From a virus, in the IMG/VR virus record IMGVR_UViG_3300024999_000482, positions 1 to 20,111 of that record: DNA of 20,111 nucleotides. One strand, 5' to 3'. The position numbers and the translations under genes were made by a program. Shown here one piece after another: positions 2,907-20,111 of this stretch (positions within the stretch are counted from its first letter, which is position 1; each line of letters starts with the position of its first letter). Under the pieces are notes generated by a model, which was given only the letters and a program-made list of their open reading frames with translations, made no database searches and was not told the DNA's origin.

Positions 2907-3131
2907 TTACCTTACAACCTTGCGTTGACACCATTTTCCGAATATTTCTGTGGTCTGATCCCACCCGAACATTGCCCATACTCGTTTTGTAGTTGAATTA
3001 ATTCCAATTTGTTTTGGGCAAATACCATGACTAAGATAATAGTTAATTTGCAGGACATTGTATAAATATGTTACTTTTTCTTTTGTTGGGATTGTTTTTA
3101 TTTCTACTTTTTCATTTATAGACTCATTCAT
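2907..3131 (-). CDS. Small protein of the recurrent paralog family (copy C, DUF5659-like)
   Basis: The start at 3131 is chosen because AAAGGAGGAAC precedes that ATG; a longer reading from 3176 would put the ribosome site inside the gene. The product is 74 residues. Its second half aligns without gaps over 20 residues with the 57-aa protein at 19624-19797: GIxxxxxxxxxxTxRVxxxF, then a terminal W. It resembles phage DUF5659-type small proteins, whose function is unknown to me. It precedes the antirepressor gene rather than a nuclease and, unlike copies A and B, has no hairpin with T-run inside it. Confidence 0.65.
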   Translation of the reverse strand: MNESINEKVEIKTIPTKEKVTYLYNVLQINYYLSHGICPKQIGINSTTKRVWAMFGWDQTTEIFGKWCQRKVVR

Positions 3132-3742: not shown

Positions 3743-4759
3743 TTAAGCACCTCCGACCCATTTTACTTGCATCGTTGCATCAACAGATAATTGAAGATTA
3801 TAAGTTGATCCAGTTAATAAAAGAACATCAAATGCATACCATTTATTTATGTCAAGCGCAACACCACTATTTAATGTGCTAAGAACACCATCTACAGCAA
3901 GAGATAAAATTCCTGTAGCACTTGTAGAAACCATCAATGTAGATTGTTGATAATTTATAGCTGTATAATTTGCTGTTAATATATTAGTGCTTGCTGTTAC
4001 TGCTTTATTTGTTTGATTGTTAATTAGGGTTCCTATAGTGTATTTTAATATTCCTTTAAGATTAGCATTTATAGATCCTGGTGCATTAGGATCTATAACA
4101 GGTGTAGCAGAATTAGTTCCCAATGTAATATTAGCTCCATCTGCTTCCATAACTGGTATGACTCCTACACCTTGAGTATAATGATTTAATAAAAATTCAG
4201 TTTGAGCTACAGCACCATTTACAAAAATAAATCTAATATATTGTTTAGTTGGTGTTGTCCAAGGCATTAATGCCGATATTGTTGCACTACAACTTAACGT
4301 TGCAAGCGTTGTCCATCCAACATCTGGAGTAGCAGGATTATAGGTATCAGCTTGTTGTAAGGTTAATAATCCCGTAGAACTTGATTTTACATAAATACGA
4401 ATCATTCCATCAGGAACAGGTTGTCTAGGTCTATCAATTACAGGTGAAGTGTAAGTTGCATTAGCAAGTAGTAAATGAGTTGGATCTAAATTTGAATCTC
4501 TCATTACCATTGCAACATCACCATGAGTCATTGTTGCTCCTATGAGATTATTTCCAGATTCTAAACTAATTGAGCCTAAACTATCATTGCTTATGTCAAT
4601 CCAATTTTCGCCATCATAAGTTTGATATGTTTTTCTAACTCCTGTTGTTGTATTGAATTCATATAATATTGCACCTTTGTCACCGTGTCCTTTAGTGTCT
4701 GTGGATAGACATGTATAAATTGGAGTATGAGAATTTATTCCGACATATGTAAATGCCAT
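3743..4759 (-). CDS. Probable virion structural protein (tail appendage or fibre-associated)
   Basis: I do not recognise a named family. The 338-residue product is rich in Thr, Ser, Ala, Asn and Gly with few charged residues and predicted mostly beta, as in phage appendage proteins. Near the N-terminus are phrases typical of fibre or head-associated beta proteins, such as YEFNTTTGVRKTYQTYDGENW. The C-terminal half has WYAFDVLLLTGSTYNLQLS, suggesting a receptor- or carbohydrate-binding-like sandwich. It is followed after one base by the tail collar gene, so the two probably work in one appendage. AAAGGAGGAATC precedes the ATG at 4759. A strong terminator lies just upstream, so it probably has its own promoter. 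Confidence 0.7.
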   Translation of the reverse strand: MAFTYVGINSHTPIYTCLSTDTKGHGDKGAILYEFNTTTGVRKTYQTYDGENWIDISNDSLGSISLESGNNLIGATMTHGDVAMVMRDSNLDPTHLLLANATYTSPVIDRPRQPVPDGMIRIYVKSSSTGLLTLQQADTYNPATPDVGWTTLATLSCSATISALMPWTTPTKQYIRFIFVNGAVAQTEFLLNHYTQGVGVIPVMEADGANITLGTNSATPVIDPNAPGSINANLKGILKYTIGTLINNQTNKAVTASTNILTANYTAINYQQSTLMVSTSATGILSLAVDGVLSTLNSGVALDINKWYAFDVLLLTGSTYNLQLSVDATMQVKWVGGA

Positions 4760-4825: not shown

Positions 4826-4877
4826 AAAAAAATAAGGAGAAGAAGACAATTGGTGTTGTCTGTCTTCTCCTTATTTT
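4826..4877 (-). terminator. Long intrinsic terminator after the third nuclease gene
   Basis: A 15-base outer arm (4829-4843 with 4863-4877) and a 5-base inner arm (4844-4848 with 4857-4861) pair perfectly, with one unpaired base (4862) and an 8-base loop. The minus-strand transcript then reads seven Ts (4832-4826). This is the strongest terminator in the window and should stop transcripts coming from the nuclease gene and the tail genes upstream. Confidence 0.88.
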
Positions 4878-4958: not shown

Positions 4959-6245
4959 TTATTTTGCTACTAAACTAGATAATCCTAAAACTTCTTCTAA
5001 CTTACTTCTCAAATATTCAACATCATGCCATTTTGTATTATCTGCAATTCTAAGTAATTTAATTCCATGTTCAGGGATTAATTCATTTTTCACAGCATCA
5101 TTAGCTTGTAATGTTATAAAAGCTTCTTCTCCACCAAATTTAGTATATGGTTTTCTATGTTGCCTACCGTCTACCTCTACAACTAAATTATATTTTTCAA
5201 AATATCCATCACAAAATAATGGAAAATCATTTATTCCTCTTAACCAAATGAATGTTTTTTGAGATTCATATTCCTCATTTAAAATAATTGACATGTTTTT
5301 TAATACATAAGTTTCAAATATTGATTGTTTCTGCTGAGTAGGATACCCGTATGATTTACAGATGTTAGACCAGTTCATATTCAATTTTTTACGATATGTA
5401 CTATCATCATGTTTTGAAAGTTTATTAAATAATCTTGTAGAAGGATATATTCCTGTGTCAACGAAACATTTATCAAACACATTTCTAAATTCATTTTCTA
5501 AATCATCTAATGATAAAATAGTTTTATTCATATTTGCTACTCGACTACTTGTTTTAGTTTTATATTCTGATCTATATTTTATATATTCTTTATATTGTAA
5601 TTCAGAACTAAACATTTTAACTATCTGATTATAAACATCACCTTTTAAATTCAATATACTTGTATATGCTGAGAGTGATATTGGTGATATATTTTTAAAT
5701 TCAGCAAATAATGGAACTCTACCAATCTCATTTATCAAACTATGAAAATTACTATTTAAATTTTCTACTGTGTAATTTCTTTTATCATACTTAATGCCAG
5801 ATAATTCACTTATAATTTGATTTCCATAATATTTTATAAGGTTCTCTGAAAGATAATTGTGTTCTCTACAGAATGATTTAATACTTTTAGAATTTGTTTT
5901 ATTCATAAATATCTTAAATTCTTTTATAATATAGTCAAGCAAATCATTGTCTTTGGTAAATAATTTTAAAATCTTACACCAAGAAACATTATAATAATTT
6001 AAATATGTAAAACTATTATATTCAGATATATTATCAAAACCCTTTGGTGTTAGATGATAATCTTCCTTAATTATTGAATAGAAATTGCTTCTTAAAATAT
6101 CATCTGTGAATTCACTTATTGGTTTGGTTTTGTTCCTTCTTAATTGACCTTTATTTTTTCTATCTTTAGCACATGTATCACAATATTTTTTAGACAAGTG
6201 AACATTTATCATTGGTTCATTACATTTGATACAATATTTATCCAT
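4959..6245 (-). CDS. Homing-type endonuclease: N-terminal zinc ribbon, C-terminal Vsr-like nuclease
   Basis: The ATG at 6245 is chosen because GGAAGGAGAG precedes it, giving 428 residues. The N-terminus has a zinc ribbon (CIKC and CDTC pairs in the first 25 residues). A long middle region contains weak helical repeats such as LNSNFHSLINEIGRVPLFAEF, resembling DNA-binding repeats of other phage homing enzymes. The C-terminus shows FETYV...FPLFCDGYF (Asp near 346), VVEVDGRQH (Glu near 357, His near 363) and KLLRI, the PD-(D/E)XK pattern of Vsr and of the phage homing enzyme I-Bth0305I. It splits the tail-tube-like gene from the appendage genes. A hairpin lies upstream and a strong terminator downstream, so it looks like a self-contained inserted unit. 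Confidence 0.82.
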   Translation of the reverse strand: MDKYCIKCNEPMINVHLSKKYCDTCAKDRKNKGQLRRNKTKPISEFTDDILRSNFYSIIKEDYHLTPKGFDNISEYNSFTYLNYYNVSWCKILKLFTKDNDLLDYIIKEFKIFMNKTNSKSIKSFCREHNYLSENLIKYYGNQIISELSGIKYDKRNYTVENLNSNFHSLINEIGRVPLFAEFKNISPISLSAYTSILNLKGDVYNQIVKMFSSELQYKEYIKYRSEYKTKTSSRVANMNKTILSLDDLENEFRNVFDKCFVDTGIYPSTRLFNKLSKHDDSTYRKKLNMNWSNICKSYGYPTQQKQSIFETYVLKNMSIILNEEYESQKTFIWLRGINDFPLFCDGYFEKYNLVVEVDGRQHRKPYTKFGGEEAFITLQANDAVKNELIPEHGIKLLRIADNTKWHDVEYLRSKLEEVLGLSSLVAK

Positions 6246-6279
6246 TTTATTTTCTCTCCTTCCGATATAGGAAAATGGG

Positions 6280-6307
6280 AAAGACACCTGTATCGGCAGA
6301 TGTCTTT
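6280..6307 (-). terminator. Hairpin in the leader of the third nuclease gene, possible attenuator
   Basis: On the minus strand AAAGACATCTG (6307-6297) pairs with CAGGTGTCTTT (6290-6280) through 11 pairs including one G-U, around a 6-nt loop. The 3' side ends in TTT and is followed by CCCATTTTCC, so the T-run is weak. It lies between the small gene ending at 6367 and the nuclease start at 6245, close to the ribosome site. Confidence 0.5.
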
Positions 6308-10431: not shown

Positions 10432-11808
10432 TTATATCAACTCACTTCTCTTCCTTTTTACATTTAAAATTTTATCATCAATTAATTTCTTCCAAGTTTC
10501 ATCTTTATCATCTGCCCAATAAGGAATTTCAACATAAAAATATCCTTGCGATTTCGCAAAGATTCTTTTATATCTATCTTTTAATTTTTGATAATGTAAT
10601 TCATAATCAGGTGTTGTATTATTCTTTTTTGCAGCCATGATTGCGAAATTAGTAATTTCATAATGTTGAATTCCATTGCACTCAAAAATAATATGTTTAT
10701 CATTTATTGTTATTTCATTATCGTAAGGAAGAAGATAATGAGTTTTAGGATTATAGCATTTTAAAGTACATTTAGATTCGTGCTTTAATTCAAAATCTAA
10801 ACCTTTTAAATATAATCTAATTTTATTCTGTAAAATAGATTCATCCAATTCTTCTACACATTCAGGACATCTAAATTTACATCTAGTAGAATTAGCTATA
10901 TTCCTTTTATAGTCTTTATGCTTACCTTCAGGACATTTCCACCATACCTCTCGATCAGCATAAGGAGAATATTCATAAGGAGACTTTTTATTTTTATCAG
11001 ACCAAATATTTAATGATTCGGAATGTAATGTACCTAAACTATCTAATGGATGTACTTTGCCATGTTGATTGGTGCAATAAGGGCATCTGTTTTCATTTAT
11101 AAAATTATTACAATTAGATATATAACTTTCATGATAGTCTTTTTCTTGGCATATTAACCAAATGTTCTTGCTTCTACTCCCATAACTAATTTTCCAAGGA
11201 CTAATGATGTTTCTAATATAATCCCAATACTTTTCAAGAAAATCTTTACATATGTTATCAATACCCCATTGGGCAAAGGAGTTGCATTTTCTACAATTCA
11301 TTACTCCTTTATGACCATTTGTAAAATCTCCTATATTACATAGCTCAGATTCGTGTATATCTCTTGGACATTTAAAATAAAATTTCTTTCTTGAACTATA
11401 ACATATTTCTTCTGGTTTATATTTATTTAGTTCATAGTCCCATCTATCAAGGATGTCTAGCCTACCATTTTCAATACACCATTGTTTAAATGATTTACTT
11501 TTTAATAATAATGTTATCATTTGTTTCTTAAGACCAGTTAATTTTTTAGAGCACTTACGACAATAATACTTACCATCTTCTTTTACACACATTTTATAAT
11601 TTGCCCAAGAAATAGGTCTCATATATGGATTTTCACAATGCTCTCCATCACATTTTACATGTACTAATGCAATACTTGTATTAAACAAATCTTCAACATT
11701 TACTTTAAAAACATCTCCTATTTTAGTAAATGCGTAACCCAAATTCTTAAAATGAGTGCATGTTGCCCTTTGCCAAGTTATTTCGACTGTCTCAGTTATT
11801 AATCCCAT
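10432..11808 (-). CDS. Homing-type endonuclease with multiple zinc fingers and Vsr-like C-terminus
   Basis: The ATG at 11808 is chosen because GGAAGGATTTG precedes it, giving 458 residues. The N-terminal part (WQRATCTHFKNLGYAFTKIGD) is a DNA-binding module I have seen at the start of related phage enzymes. Then come several zinc-ribbon-like units with Cys pairs: VKC/CRKC, FKCP/CRKC, LICQ/CPYC and WWKCPEGKHKDY/CPEC, of the 'probable zinc ribbon' (DUF4379-like) type. The C-terminus has a helix with ESILQNKIRLYL, an acidic LPYDNE, IIFECNGIQHYEI and a later YFYVEIPYW strand, fitting the EDxHD/Vsr nuclease fold. It lies between the small paralog gene A and the connector gene. Its stop is one base from the next GTG start. 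Confidence 0.82.
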   Translation of the reverse strand: MGLITETVEITWQRATCTHFKNLGYAFTKIGDVFKVNVEDLFNTSIALVHVKCDGEHCENPYMRPISWANYKMCVKEDGKYYCRKCSKKLTGLKKQMITLLLKSKSFKQWCIENGRLDILDRWDYELNKYKPEEICYSSRKKFYFKCPRDIHESELCNIGDFTNGHKGVMNCRKCNSFAQWGIDNICKDFLEKYWDYIRNIISPWKISYGSRSKNIWLICQEKDYHESYISNCNNFINENRCPYCTNQHGKVHPLDSLGTLHSESLNIWSDKNKKSPYEYSPYADREVWWKCPEGKHKDYKRNIANSTRCKFRCPECVEELDESILQNKIRLYLKGLDFELKHESKCTLKCYNPKTHYLLPYDNEITINDKHIIFECNGIQHYEITNFAIMAAKKNNTTPDYELHYQKLKDRYKRIFAKSQGYFYVEIPYWADDKDETWKKLIDDKILNVKRKRSELI

Positions 11809-11859
11809 ATAAATCAAATCCTTCCACTTTAAAATATTAACTATAAATAAATACAAATA

Positions 11860-12039
11860 TTATTTTTTACTCCATTCCATTAAAGCATCTTTAAATCCAT
11901 TGTCCTCAATATAAACAAAAAACTGCATCTTTGTCTGTGGATGCAGTCCTACTAATTTATATTTAATTCCTTTTGAATATAAAAAATCTTTGAGTTTAAA
12001 ACTATAGCAAGGAAATAATTCAACATCCATTCCTTCCAT
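11860..12039 (-). CDS. Small protein of the recurrent paralog family (copy A, DUF5659-like)
   Basis: A 59-residue product from the ATG at 12039; a GTG one codon upstream and an ATG three codons downstream are also possible, and AAAGGG lies just before. The core CYSFKLKDFLYSKGIKY, LHPQTKMQFFVY and final W align with the protein at 19624-19797 (CYSNKMKNFIKSMGIDY, VHPATNRVYFVF, W). The family resembles DUF5659 phage proteins of unknown role. It starts 9 bases after the preceding stop and precedes a homing-type nuclease. Its codons for LHPQTKMQFF contain a terminator-like hairpin. Function is unknown. Confidence 0.75.
   Translation of the reverse strand: MEGMDVELFPCYSFKLKDFLYSKGIKYKLVGLHPQTKMQFFVYIEDNGFKDALMEWSKK
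11917..11947 (-). terminator. Terminator-like hairpin inside small gene A
   Basis: On the minus strand ACTGCATC (11947-11940) pairs perfectly with GATGCAGT (11929-11922) around a 10-nt loop, with six Ts at 11922-11917 and then GTTTA. This is a full intrinsic-terminator pattern lying wholly within the reading frame, over the codons for LHP, QT and KMQFF. It precedes the nuclease gene by about 110 bases. Confidence 0.65.
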
Positions 12040-12047
12040 CACACCCT

Positions 12048-15468: not shown

Positions 15469-16962
15469 TTAAATTTTGTCCCAAAGACTTTTAGACTCTG
15501 TTTTATTATTTTCATTTACAAAAGGCAATCCAACTTTCATAATTCCATCATTGTTAGTTTTGCCTTTTGAAAAACTAAACGCTTCAGCTTTAACTTTATT
15601 TACCCAAATATTAAGATCATTTGCACAAAAATTCTTAGCATCTTCACGCAATTCTTCCATTTGCTCTTTTGGCATAGATTCCATAACTTCTGTAAGTGTA
15701 TATTCAATTACAGACAACATTTCTTTTTCTTCAATGTCTGATTTGAATTTTTTAAGTTGCTCATTTTCTGACATATAAATAGCCATTTGATCTTCAGAAG
15801 TAGACATTTTAGCAGTCATTTCAGACATTTGTACTTCTAGTGCAGAATATTTATTGTACATTTCTTCATACTTTTCAGACATATCTGTATATTTTGCTTG
15901 AAAATTATCTTCATCTTCTTTGAGAATAACTTCTTCTGCCATAGTTTCTTCAGTTTCTTCAAGTACAACCTCTTCAGCCATTTGTTCTTTGCTTTCTTCT
16001 GCTAATACTTTATCAGTTTCGGCTTGTTTATCAGCAAGTTCTGCTTGTGCTACTGCTTCCACGTTAGCATCTGCTCCCATTTCTTCTTGCTGTTCATTTT
16101 CTATAACTTCAAGTTTTTCAATTTCTTCTGTAGGCACTATTTCTTCCTCCTTCTTTACTTCTTCAAACTTTTCTGTTTGTGGATTAATTATGTTTTCAGC
16201 CCATTCTAAAGATTCAAACCCTCCTAGAAGATATTGTGCGGTTTCAGTTTTTGTCTTAGCTGAAAACTTTATTATGTTATGCAACAAATCTAAACTTACA
16301 AATTCATTATTTATTAATTGATTTGCAATGCTTATATTTACAGCAGTAGCACCTTTGGGATTGTTTTGTTTAAGAAAAATTCCTTTTTCTGCATTTTGTT
16401 TGACAATAGATGGTATTTTAAAGTCATACATAAGATGCTCAATTTCTTCTTTGACCTTAGAAAACGATAAAACTTCTGCTCTAGCATTAGGAATTGCAGG
16501 TGTAGTTCCAATTAATGTAATTCCACTGAAACAAAATGATTCAATTGAGTTATTTTCACCAGACTCTATAATTACAATCTCCATGCTAAGATTTTGTATT
16601 TGATCTCTATCTAAAACAAAAGCGACATCTTTTGCATATCTACACCATATAATACCATCGGCACAAAGCCATCTTTTCCCTTCTTCATCTATTTCATAAA
16701 AGATATCATTATCACATAAAATTACCCCTACTGGAACTTCATCTAATTCATGCCCCATTAATTGCTGACTATAGCGATTATACTTAGCTACAACTGGCTT
16801 TCCTATTAAAGTAGGTCTTGCTTTTTCAATTGCTGTCCAAGGAATAGGCTTATCGTGCTGATTATCTCCTTCGGATACTATCCATAAACGAACTTTCATA
16901 AGTTCACTGTTAGATATTTCCATTAAATCGAATTTACTTATTGCAAATGATAATTTATTCAT
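15469..16962 (-). CDS. Prohead protease fused to scaffold-like C-terminal domain
   Basis: The 497-residue protein combines maturation protease and scaffold. Residues about 1-170 match a phage serine prohead protease: LIGKPVVAKYNRYS, then GHELDEVPVG (His71) and QIQNLSMEIV (Ser126), the usual His/Ser pair, with an acidic residue in the following strand, and GITLIGTTPAIPNA. Residues about 265-440 are very acidic and coiled-coil-like, with near repeats EEVVLEETEETMAEEV and EEVILKEDED, as in scaffolds. The C-terminal 50 residues are less acidic and could bind capsid protein. AAGGAGGTGAAAA precedes the ATG. Expected function: guide capsid assembly, cleave itself and the capsid protein, and leave the head as peptides. 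Confidence 0.87.
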   Translation of the reverse strand: MNKLSFAISKFDLMEISNSELMKVRLWIVSEGDNQHDKPIPWTAIEKARPTLIGKPVVAKYNRYSQQLMGHELDEVPVGVILCDNDIFYEIDEEGKRWLCADGIIWCRYAKDVAFVLDRDQIQNLSMEIVIIESGENNSIESFCFSGITLIGTTPAIPNARAEVLSFSKVKEEIEHLMYDFKIPSIVKQNAEKGIFLKQNNPKGATAVNISIANQLINNEFVSLDLLHNIIKFSAKTKTETAQYLLGGFESLEWAENIINPQTEKFEEVKKEEEIVPTEEIEKLEVIENEQQEEMGADANVEAVAQAELADKQAETDKVLAEESKEQMAEEVVLEETEETMAEEVILKEDEDNFQAKYTDMSEKYEEMYNKYSALEVQMSEMTAKMSTSEDQMAIYMSENEQLKKFKSDIEEKEMLSVIEYTLTEVMESMPKEQMEELREDAKNFCANDLNIWVNKVKAEAFSFSKGKTNNDGIMKVGLPFVNENNKTESKSLWDKI

Positions 16963-16992: not shown

Positions 16993-17181
16993 TTAAATTA
17001 AAATTTTAATCCAAAATGGTGATTTTTCTAAAACCATTTCAAATTTATTTGTATAGCTGAAATAAAAAATCCCTTCTTTATTACTCAATAAAGGAATATT
17101 GTTATTAATTAGATAATCTTTAACTATTTTTGAGGTTGTTTTATAAGTGTTAGACAATGAAATTGGATTGGTAACAAACAT
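16993..17181 (-). CDS. Small protein of the recurrent paralog family (copy D, diverged)
   Basis: A 62-residue product from ATG 17181 with AAGGTGGTGATT upstream. KIVKDYLINNNIP, GIFYFSYTNKFEMVL and the late W line up with the paralogs at 11860-12039 and 19624-19797 (SNKEGIFYFSY against HPQTKMQFFVY), although identity is low. It lies between the CYTH gene and the protease-scaffold gene. A weaker hairpin lies at the matching region. Function unknown; it may be an older, diverged copy. Confidence 0.55.
   Translation of the reverse strand: MFVTNPISLSNTYKTTSKIVKDYLINNNIPLLSNKEGIFYFSYTNKFEMVLEKSPFWIKILI
17064..17093 (-). repeat. Weak hairpin plus T-run inside small gene D
   Basis: On the minus strand CTTTATT (17093-17087) pairs with AATAAAG (17082-17076) around GAGT, then after AAGGGA comes TTTTTT (17069-17064). 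The gap between stem and T-run and the AT-rich stem make termination doubtful. Its position in the gene is about three codons earlier than in copies A and B. Confidence 0.3.
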
Positions 17182-17195
17182 AATTAATCACCACC

Positions 17196-17687
17196 TTAGA
17201 TTAAATCCCATAAACGAGAACTTATATTATTTATTTTTGTAAAAACTTCAACAGTAAAAGATTTATCTTTTATTAACTCTTTGCCAAACCAATCTGGAAT
17301 AATAAAAGCATTCATAGATTCTTCTGTAGGAAATTCTACTTCAACAAGTTTATCTCCGGTGTCAATAAAATTATCAATTTCTGCTATTAATCCATTATCT
17401 AAATCAACCAATGTACGTTCTTTTACAACTGGTTTCTTGTTAATTACTTCAAAAATACGATTATATCTTTCTCCGCTAATACGATGTTCTAACTCTTCTC
17501 TGGTATTATCTTTCAATTGATATTTAACTGTATGATAATATGTATCTTGATTTTCAGAATTAGTAATCTTACGGACACGAACATCAGGAGAAAAGTTAGC
17601 GTATGTTTGAGTAATTGTAAATTTTTCCTTGATTTGAGAAGATGGAGGATCTGATTTTAATTTCCAACGCTTTTCACGTTCAATCAC
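17196..17687 (-). CDS. CYTH-domain protein (triphosphatase or nucleotide-binding tunnel fold)
   Basis: The 163-residue protein follows the CYTH pattern from end to end. The start IEREKRWKL is a variant of the ExExK signature with Arg in place of Lys. Then come RVRK (Arg37, Arg39), YHTVKYQ (Lys55), EELEHRIS (Glu64/65/67), VVKERTLVD (Lys89, Arg91), AEIDNF (Glu103, Asp105) and VEVEFPTEESMNAFIIPDWFGKEL (Glu116, Glu118). CYTH enzymes bind triphosphates in a beta tunnel with metal and act as inorganic or thiamine triphosphatases, mRNA capping triphosphatases, or class IV adenylyl cyclases. Which substrate applies here cannot be told. The GTG start at 17687 overlaps the stop of the upstream nuclease gene in GTGA, and AGGTGA lies 9 nt before. 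It is followed by a small paralog and the protease gene. Confidence 0.82.
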   Translation of the reverse strand: MIEREKRWKLKSDPPSSQIKEKFTITQTYANFSPDVRVRKITNSENQDTYYHTVKYQLKDNTREELEHRISGERYNRIFEVINKKPVVKERTLVDLDNGLIAEIDNFIDTGDKLVEVEFPTEESMNAFIIPDWFGKELIKDKSFTVEVFTKINNISSRLWDLI

Positions 17688-19594
17688 GCAGATAGTTCAC
17701 CTACTTTTTCTAAATATAACATGATAAAATCATTTAGTTTGTCCATAACTCCTTTACAATTATTTTTTAGGTCATTAGGATAAATGCCTATATAATATAT
17801 CTCTTTGTTGTTATTATAATAATTTTCTTTCCTATATGTTTTGTTCCTATATTCTACATATAGATTGTTTTTTGCTTTTATATCAAATAGTCCATAATAC
17901 TCAATAATTAGAGGTTTATCTAAAACATATGATCCAATTGTTTCAAGATAAAAATCGGGACAGTAATAATTATCAGTATTATCAGGATAAAACCGATACT
18001 TTTTCTTCTTACCACTCCCTATTGCCACAATTGAGTCTATTTCTAAATATTGATAAATATAATCAAATACCATCTTCTCTTCATAACTATAAAACTTACT
18101 AAAACCATCAACACCTGTATAAATTCTGAAATCTTTTTCTTCTAATTTAAATTCTGGATACATAGTATTCAAACAATCAAATATTGAATCATAATGATTG
18201 TATTTGTAAATGTATGTAAGTATATTATTTATTTTATTATTGTGTCTATCTTTAAAAATTATTGGCAATTCATTTCTAATGTTATTCAAAGAATTTACAT
18301 TAACTATGTTGTATAAAACATGTTTAACATATTCATTAAAATTATCTCTACTTTGCCAAAATTTTAATGATACATTATTTAATTCATAAATTTTTATATT
18401 GTACTCAGGAAAAATAAAATTTAAAATATCATACAATGTCATTCCATCAAATAAACTATATAAAATCTTGTACTCAACAAACATTTTATAATATATATTT
18501 TGAACTAATTTTTGTTTATTGTCTAATCTTACAACATTCATTATGACGAATCTGCACAATTTTATTATGTTTTCTTCTGTTTTGATATTCATAGGTATGG
18601 AGTAAAGCAACTTACCATTGGGAGTGCCATAGTAAATCCATTTCCACCATTGGATAATATCATATTTACTAGTAGAGGATTCATTATCTAGTTCTATTCC
18701 AAACTTTTTATAGTAGAGTTTTTTACCCTCTTTATTCATCCAATCTTTAGTGTCAGATGTACAAATTGTACTTGGATTTTTAAATTTTATTTTTAGTTGT
18801 GCTAGTTTTTTACCAACTCCATCCACAGTTCTATTTGGTAATATTAACAGTAAATCTTGCATTGACTTATCACTATGATCAAAACTTTTTACAATATCTA
18901 ATTCATCATTTGTCCAATATTTGGCCTTATTATTTAAATTATAGTTAAATGTTTTACATTTTACGTATGTGTTTACATATGTTTTATTGTTCAATAGTGG
19001 TACGATATCTTCAATATTCATTCCTTCACTATTTTTTAACAAATCCATTTCTTCTTTAGACCATGATCCAGAAGATTCTTTGATTATCTTTTGTTTTGGT
19101 TTATACTTTAAGTAAACTTTTATTTTCTTATTAAATAAATTTATGCCACATTTTTCATTTATCATAGTTATGAAATCGACTAATCCTAATTTGTAAAAAT
19201 CCAATATCCAATTAATTTTCAATGTTTTTATTAATTCGCTATTAAAACAAATATTGTCATCCTTGTCTGAAGTAATAATATTATCATAAATATATTTCAT
19301 TAATGTCAATAAGTTTTTATCATTTAATAGTTCCGAAGGAATTTGATTAATATTTTTACCGTTTGGGGTGTTATAATACAAAAATTCCCACCAGTTAATG
19401 ATACTATATGTATTAAAATATTTATTAAATTCTAGTATAATACCATACTTCTTTTTATATTTTTCAATATTTCTTTGCTTATTGGCACAATTCTTACATA
19501 TATGTCTTAAACCAAATTTTCTACTTTTGTCTTGTAGAAAGTATTCTACCGTAAACGGATATTCATTATCACATTTTATACACTTCTTTTTCAT
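17684..19594 (-). CDS. Homing-type endonuclease with zinc ribbon, duplicated module, two Myb/SANT domains and PD-(D/E)XK core
   Basis: The 636-residue protein starts at ATG 19594 behind GGCGAAGGAGA. Residues 5-36 hold a zinc ribbon (C5/C8 and C33/C36). A module with KKYGI, INWWEFLYYNTPNGK and an ensuing helical region spans about 48-150 and is repeated at about 296-400 (KKFGIEL, IQWWKWIYYGTPNGK), an internal duplication. Between them lie two Myb/SANT-like helical domains: SWSKEEMDLLKN (about 177-218) and YWTNDELDIVKSF (about 226-270). A third related helical region starts at FWQSRDNFNEYV (412). The C-terminus has YCPDFYL (Asp547) and LIIEYYG (Glu565), a PD-(D/E)XK nuclease. It splits portal from the CYTH gene. 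Its stop overlaps the next gene's GTG. Homing activity is inferred from the family. Confidence 0.82.
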   Translation of the reverse strand: MKKKCIKCDNEYPFTVEYFLQDKSRKFGLRHICKNCANKQRNIEKYKKKYGIILEFNKYFNTYSIINWWEFLYYNTPNGKNINQIPSELLNDKNLLTLMKYIYDNIITSDKDDNICFNSELIKTLKINWILDFYKLGLVDFITMINEKCGINLFNKKIKVYLKYKPKQKIIKESSGSWSKEEMDLLKNSEGMNIEDIVPLLNNKTYVNTYVKCKTFNYNLNNKAKYWTNDELDIVKSFDHSDKSMQDLLLILPNRTVDGVGKKLAQLKIKFKNPSTICTSDTKDWMNKEGKKLYYKKFGIELDNESSTSKYDIIQWWKWIYYGTPNGKLLYSIPMNIKTEENIIKLCRFVIMNVVRLDNKQKLVQNIYYKMFVEYKILYSLFDGMTLYDILNFIFPEYNIKIYELNNVSLKFWQSRDNFNEYVKHVLYNIVNVNSLNNIRNELPIIFKDRHNNKINNILTYIYKYNHYDSIFDCLNTMYPEFKLEEKDFRIYTGVDGFSKFYSYEEKMVFDYIYQYLEIDSIVAIGSGKKKKYRFYPDNTDNYYCPDFYLETIGSYVLDKPLIIEYYGLFDIKAKNNLYVEYRNKTYRKENYYNNNKEIYYIGIYPNDLKNNCKGVMDKLNDFIMLYLEKVGELSA

Positions 19595-19623: not shown

Positions 19624-19797
19624 TTATTTCTTTACCTTATTCCACAATTGAATATTTTCATCTAGTTCATTGCTTTTCTGAAAAACAAAATACACCCTGT
19701 TGGTTGCAGGGTGTACGTCTTTTTTTATATAATCAATTCCCATTGACTTTATAAAATTTTTCATTTTATTACTATAGCAATAAAATAAACAAGACAT
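19624..19797 (-). CDS. Small protein of the recurrent paralog family (copy B, DUF5659-like)
   Basis: A 57-residue product, starting at ATG 19797 with TAGGAGGTAATAT before it and ending at TAA 19624. The sequence reads MSCLFYCYSNKMKNFIKSMG, then IDYIKKDVHPATNRVYFVFQ, and ends with ELDENIQLWNKVKK. It aligns over nearly its full length with copy A. The family resembles DUF5659 phage proteins, role unknown. It lies between the portal gene and the largest nuclease gene, 29 bases before the latter. The codons for VHPATNRVYFVF hold a very strong terminator-like hairpin. Confidence 0.78.
   Translation of the reverse strand: MSCLFYCYSNKMKNFIKSMGIDYIKKDVHPATNRVYFVFQKSNELDENIQLWNKVKK
19681..19715 (-). 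terminator. Strong terminator-like hairpin inside small gene B
   Basis: On the minus strand TACACCCTG (19715-19707) pairs perfectly with CAGGGTGTA (19699-19691) around a 7-nt loop, followed at once by TTTTGTTTTT. It is one of the most GC-rich spots in the window and lies wholly inside the reading frame. The plus strand has T-rich DNA just after the stem too (19720-19726), so it could act on both strands. Confidence 0.72.
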
Positions 19798-19815
19798 ATA
19801 TTACCTCCTAGTGGA

Positions 19816-20111
19816 TTATTTTTTCATTTCATTCGATGAAGCATCTCTCGTAATTACTCCTGCATCTCCTAATTCACCATCAGGTTTTCTTGGCCTCCCA
19901 TTTTCATTATCTTTGCCACTCATCTGCGATGCCATTACAATAGGAGTTAGACCATCTACAAATCCTTTAGCCTTTGCCATTGCTAATTCTCTTTCAAAAT
20001 CAAAGGGATTCTTACCTAATGCTGCTGCAAAACTTTGTGGCAACACCATACCAAGTTGTGCTAAAGCATTCGCATTATCTAATCTTTCTTTCCTACTTGC
20101 TGGCATTTGAG
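19816..20111 (-). CDS. C-terminal part of a probable portal protein (5' end outside window)
   Basis: The frame is open to the window edge, so at least 98 residues of the C-terminus are present. It contains LDNANALAQLGMVLPQSFAAALGKNPFDFE, then AKGFVDGLTPIVMASQ and a disordered polar end NENGRPRKPDGELGDAGVITRDASSN. The combination of an LPQ...AAALG helix pair with an SLTPI-type phrase and a GRPRK...GAxTRD tail is what I associate with portal proteins of large Firmicutes phages. The place upstream of the protease-scaffold and capsid genes agrees. An ATG at 20106 exists but is probably internal. The next gene begins 19 bases later. A conclusive call needs the missing part. Confidence 0.65.
   Translation of the reverse strand, partial: QMPASRKERLDNANALAQLGMVLPQSFAAALGKNPFDFERELAMAKAKGFVDGLTPIVMASQMSGKDNENGRPRKPDGELGDAGVITRDASSNEMKK

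Follow-up and report, generated by a model that had tools for sequence, protein, structure and literature searches.

What is the role of a terminator-like RNA hairpin that is folded into the coding sequence of a small phage gene, directly before a homing nuclease? This question is raised by an entire IMG/VR virus record of 20,111 bases (the window), which has its main genes on the - strand. The features concerned, all on that strand, are the following.

19816..20106 (-), portal gene, C-terminal part, the upstream neighbor of B1 (by comparison)
19804..19808 (-), strong Shine-Dalgarno sequence GGAGG of gene B1, 6 nt before the ATG (from the sequence)
19624..19797 (-), gene B1, a 57-aa DUF5659/phrog_21297-like small protein, predicted beta-alpha-beta-beta-alpha (by profile match and model)
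19690..19716 (-), terminator-like hairpin in gene B1, codons V28-Y36 (by fold, shuffles and synonymous recoding)
19680..19689 (-), U-rich tail (TTTGTTTTTC), part of the FVF codons (from the sequence)
17684..19594 (-), nuclease N4, 636 aa, with an endonuclease-VII-like N-terminus, homologous to the nuclease of relative L015 (by comparison)
15469..16962 (-), conserved head gene that comes next behind the cassette, with a homologue at L003 7615-9324 (by comparison)
11860..12042 (-), gene B2, a second DUF5659-like gene, directly upstream of nuclease N3 (by profile match)
11919..11950 (-), second terminator-like hairpin within a coding sequence, in the same codon register as in B1, with a 10-nt loop and a T-rich tail
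10432..11811 (-), nuclease N3, with a DUF4379 treble-clef and a homing endonuclease C-terminus (by profile match)
10542..10563 (-), terminator-like hairpin at the 3' end of the N3 coding region, with a matching hairpin in the N3 homologue L038 (from the sequence)

The B1 hairpin has a 10-pair stem, consisting of nine Watson-Crick pairs and one terminal G-U, with arms GUACACCCUG and CAGGGUGUAU around the 7-nt loop CAACCAA, and is followed by UUUGUUUUUC. Its predicted stability is -15.2 kcal/mol (z = -3.9), a value reached by none of 200 shuffles, and it ranks first in the list of terminator-like sites in the window, of which 10 were found compared to 4.9 expected in shuffles. A stable G+C-containing stem, a short loop and a U-rich tract directly after it, all on the transcribed strand, are the sequence features of an intrinsic terminator. 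The hairpin lies about 100 nt from the portal gene, begins at nucleotide 82 of the B1 reading frame, and ends 96 nt before the ATG of N4 at 19594. The protein encoded by B1 falls just short of the Pfam cut-off for DUF5659 (PF18903; 23.1 bits against 23.6) and matches phrog_21297 with E = 2.7e-13. The AlphaFold model of the B protein (pLDDT 92) has the same fold as its best viral match, the model of an annotated DUF5659 protein (TM 0.95), and a fold search of the PDB with this model gave no significant match. The RNA hairpin spans the codons for the predicted beta2-turn-beta3 of the protein. We found no literature on DUF5659.

A hairpin within a gene could arise by chance from the codons that a conserved protein motif requires. 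In B1 three of the stem pairs are fixed by amino acids and the tail is T-rich because of the FVF residues it encodes, so a codon-aware null is needed. When synonymous codons were drawn from the window's own usage, the observed hairpin score was reached in 0 of 3000 recodings of B1 and 3 of 3000 recodings of B2. When synonymous codons were instead permuted within each of the 24 genes, hairpins of B1/B2 strength within coding sequences appeared at 0.047 per permuted window and never twice in any of 150 trials, whereas the real window has two, and both lie in its DUF5659-family genes upstream of nucleases. The B2 hairpin, which was absent from the original prediction, has the core CTGCATC/GATGCAG and the tail TTTTTTGTTTAT; its codon register is that of B1 while its bases differ. 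B2 belongs to phrog_21297 (E = 6.7e-15), is 39-40% identical to B1, and precedes a nuclease, N3, that differs from N4. The stems are built from the uncommon codons CTG, CAC, GTG and AGG, and among the 464 leucine codons of the other genes, CTG, which the B2 stem uses, occurs 5 times. Given both kinds of recoding test, the uncommon codons and the association with nucleases described below, we consider it extremely improbable that the hairpins arose by chance. The presence of a terminator-like hairpin within a coding gene directly before a homing nuclease, as originally predicted, thus stands, beyond what codon choice would produce.

The association with nucleases extends beyond the window. A terminator-like hairpin, counted from the start of the small gene to 100 nt after its stop, is found in 14 of 17 distinct DUF5659-like genes before a homing-type nuclease, compared to 1 of 13 without a nuclease (Fisher p = 6e-5, kinship ignored). 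These classes were set after seeing the data, so that this and the following p-value describe the sample and are not confirmatory; the copies recovered depended on the search patterns, the 13 copies without a nuclease are on average more divergent, and the nuclease-flanked set comes partly from one sampling site, with near-duplicates removed. Two loci, L089 and L092, were excluded from the comparison because it is unclear which class of gene follows; counted as lacking a nuclease, they would change the second fraction to 3 of 15. The association spans several nuclease types, including GIY-YIG. Among later copies from the same large phages, two (L084 and L093) precede GIY-YIG nucleases and have the hairpin, and eight precede other genes and have none; L085, with a nuclease and no hairpin, is an exception alongside L015. 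When all genes of these loci are considered, a terminator-like hairpin lies within 220 nt upstream of 15 of 29 nuclease genes compared to 20 of 162 other genes (p = 7e-6, kinship ignored). Several of these 20 genes sit directly behind a nuclease, suggesting that nucleases tend to be bracketed by terminators.

Other observations concern the surroundings of these genes. The window holds four homing-type nuclease genes (3-1157, 4959-6287, 10432-11811 and 17684-19594), which occupy more than a quarter of the 20-kb record. Additional terminator-like hairpins on the - strand lie upstream of nuclease N1 (1287-1306) and directly downstream of nuclease N2 (4838-4871), so that three of the four nucleases have such a hairpin upstream and two of the four have one at or behind the 3' end. 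Hairpins of this kind also occur in the C-terminal coding region of nuclease genes, at 4709-4737 in both L018 and L030, around 3460-3570 in L038 and at 10542-10563 in the window, over the residues EGVREKLTSFF in L018 and IFAKSQGYFY in N3 and its L038 homologue. Two small genes of the window with no nuclease directly after them, 2907-3131 and 16993-17181, may be distant relatives of the DUF5659 family, based on phrog_31036 and on a weak resemblance to L018's second small gene. In L089 and L092, the DUF5659-like genes and hairpins are followed by a ...VGxVIKNYxxxC... family of unknown function (phrog_36702 for L092), possibly another type of mobile gene. Searches made of viral contigs and phage records returned no relatives of N4. 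Relatives of the L012 nuclease from Staphylococcus, Bacillus, Lactobacillus and Streptococcus phages (L098-L107) have no DUF5659 gene and no strong upstream terminator (0 of 10); most of these nucleases lie inside or beside split terminase genes, and some are annotated as intron-encoded.

The position of the hairpin varies among relatives. In most nuclease-linked copies, including gp9-gp11 of Geobacillus virus E3, it overlaps the stop codon of the small gene. Most homologues before nucleases lack pairing at the B1 codon position, an outcome that the original prediction named as refuting it, although the stop codon of these homologues is in most cases the site of a terminator-like hairpin. In the L018 group (ten distinct sequences), the stop-codon hairpin is paired in 90 of 90 cells, two of its pairs having exchanged G-C for A-U through changes on both sides, and a second small gene behind the nuclease has its own hairpin within the coding sequence. 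The original prediction held that hairpin and protein motif appear to have evolved together, and the relatives do not support it. L035 encodes the same ten residues as B2, GLHPQTKMQF, without an internal hairpin, and its stop codon is covered by a terminator-like hairpin of 11 pairs; the motif therefore needs no RNA hairpin, and the hairpin is not tied to that codon position. L015 encodes a protein 63% identical to that of B1 and precedes a nuclease, without a hairpin. The nearest relative of B1, L003 (74-77% identical), has a weaker hairpin (-7.7 kcal/mol). Compensatory synonymous change between the window and L003, suspected from the alignment, was rejected when the register gave a C-A mismatch and a G-U pair, and judged from these sequences the state of the L003 hairpin is one of decay or weak conservation. 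We likewise discarded the idea that the internal hairpin keeps its codon register across the whole family, since L012, L015, the L018 group and L035 lack it. A scan of prokaryotic genomes with a three-sequence alignment gave no match.

Comparison with empty sites bears on the mobility of the arrangement. Where the portal site is occupied, the order is portal, small gene, hairpin, nuclease, second small gene (absent in L012) and head gene. The portal site is free of a nuclease in four records from three large phages, two of these records being near-identical here: behind the portal come a single small gene and then the next head gene, and neither the upstream small gene nor a terminator-like hairpin is present. 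For B2, its hairpin and N3, the site stands naturally empty in L003. The homologues of the two flanking genes (39% identical each, E = 2e-30 and 1e-38) are adjacent there, with 12 nt from stop to start codon and no hairpin. As far as these genomes can indicate, small gene, hairpin and nuclease seem to have been gained or lost as one unit, and the empty site in L003, the nearest relative, suggests a joint entry into the phage of the window. The leader TTTAGTTTAATTGGAG is common to the window, L003 (with one mismatch) and L015, ahead of differing nucleases, which suggests that nucleases were swapped behind a retained small gene. Rfam RNAs, including group I introns, had no match in the window, L003, L012, L015 or L035. 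In L015, the portal reading frame is broken at 2383-2781 by about 400 nt that may be an intron, with no Rfam match at gathering thresholds.

We predict that the hairpin is probably an intrinsic (Rho-independent) terminator that belongs to the homing-nuclease cassette and limits transcription from the late operon into the nuclease. Homing nucleases favor tolerated insertion sites, and the hairpin follows the portal gene closely; a terminator of the head-gene operon could therefore have been there beforehand, with nucleases settling behind it because insertion at such a place is harmless. This order of events is quite unlikely, as neither the empty portal sites nor the L003 junction has a hairpin, small genes without a nuclease have one in a single case of 13, and the same type of junction occurs at different genome positions. 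No relative sampled has the small gene and hairpin at the same site without the nuclease. Alternatively, the hairpin could influence RNA stability or processing, or control translation of the nuclease, given that T4 uses hairpins that mask the ribosome-binding site, as well as RNase E processing, to control its nucleases (PMC2988022). The distance to the nuclease start, the lack of pairing with the nuclease ribosome-binding site in the predicted fold, and the U-tract directly after the hairpin in all strong cases make such a role very unlikely.

The original prediction went further and described gene B1 as a coding attenuator, in which ribosomes on the small gene melt the hairpin so that polymerase reaches the nuclease and poor translation leads to termination. 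The hairpin does sit in a translated frame, the stop codon lies in the loop or 5' arm in many relatives so that a ribosome there would cover the hairpin, and attenuators that depend on an upstream reading frame are known in Bacillus (vmlR and bmrCD; PMC9226507). However, no alternative antiterminator was found, pairing between the arms and upstream sequence being no better than for shuffled arms (p = 0.67 and 0.56). The hairpin in B1 starts within the first 100 nt of the reading frame, a region in which E. coli terminators work with almost 100% efficiency (Li 2015, as reported in PMC7858274). An attenuator opened by translation also requires ribosomes close behind the polymerase, but B. subtilis polymerase outruns ribosomes and terminators lie a few nucleotides from stop codons (PMC7858274), and the overlap with the stop codon in most relatives is the layout typical of bacteria with such runaway transcription. 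In L038 and L039 the hairpins are wholly 3' of the stop codon. A dedicated leader peptide with regulatory codons or a stall motif was not found; the small protein is a conserved folded domain without a regulatory codon run, and it occurs in many phages, also without a nuclease. Control by translation is thus unlikely, and we expect that translation does not relieve termination. The small protein could itself be the regulator in a three-part mobile cassette of DUF5659 gene, terminator and nuclease, for example as an RNA-binding antitermination or autoregulatory factor that acts on the hairpin of its own gene. If this were true, nuclease output would depend on the level of the small protein; we regard it as a speculative reading with little probability.

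For the terminator that we favor, we propose that RNA polymerase from the late head-gene operon, here coming from the portal gene, would enter the small DUF5659 gene and that most or part of it would stop at the hairpin and U-tract ahead of the nuclease, which would then be made from read-through transcripts only. The benefit would be a low dose of nuclease. The mobile unit would consist of small gene, terminator and nuclease, in many cases closed by another terminator at the nuclease 3' end, and the predicted terminator would lie over the small-gene stop codon in most relatives and within the coding sequence in both cassettes of the window. Some observations fit less well. L015 and L085 have the small gene and the nuclease without a hairpin, and the L003 hairpin is weak. 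If the small protein is of importance, it is odd that the B1 mRNA would end short of its stop codon; full B1 protein in this phage would need read-through RNA. Nor does this reading explain how transcription would reach the genes beyond the cassette despite the terminators. Since the named relatives are Geobacillus, Lysinibacillus and Clostridioides phages, we infer that the host of this phage belongs to the Bacillota.

Terminators of this kind have a precedent among phage nucleases, although the original prediction knew of none. The free-standing homing endonucleases mobE and segF of T4 have intrinsic terminators in their 5' coding region, and that of mobE ends about 30% of transcripts (PMC2988022). 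As with mobE, a homing-type nuclease is inserted here between conserved phage genes at sites also known in the empty state, and a terminator in a coding sequence would reduce the transcription that enters or crosses a free-standing homing endonuclease gene lodged in an operon; termination is measured for mobE and predicted here. In T4 the terminator lies in the nuclease gene, whereas here a separate small DUF5659 gene, which accompanies several nuclease families in relatives of Bacillota phages, carries it internally or at its end. No mobE-type terminator was found in the 5' part of the nuclease coding sequence, a further hairpin lying at the N3 3' end. Hairpins upstream of T4 I-TevI and segB and of Aeh1 mobE (PMC2988022) are similar in preceding a phage homing endonuclease and in low expression, which is predicted here, but those hairpins mask the ribosome-binding site and lie over late promoters, in contrast to a B1 hairpin 96 nt away with a U-tract. 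Bacillus vmlR and bmrCD (PMC9226507) likewise place a short translated reading frame and an intrinsic terminator ahead of the gene under control; here, no antiterminator or anti-antiterminator and no known stalling peptide was found, and the small reading frame encodes a conserved folded domain. Most relatives resemble the terminators of runaway-transcription bacteria, which lie a few nucleotides from or overlap the stop codon (Johnson 2020, as reported in PMC7858274), unlike the terminator of the window, which lies about 90 nt before it. We found nothing on point in the literature on Term-seq or ONT-cappable-seq at phage homing nucleases.

For selfish nucleases that reside in essential late phage operons, a small partner gene with a folded-in terminator is a concrete and recurring candidate answer to how they may avoid over-expression. 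DUF5659, a widespread phage family of unknown function, gains a genomic role as a recurrent neighbor of homing nucleases. Geobacillus virus E3, for which a complete genome is available, is a phage in which the arrangement could be tested, at gp9-gp11.
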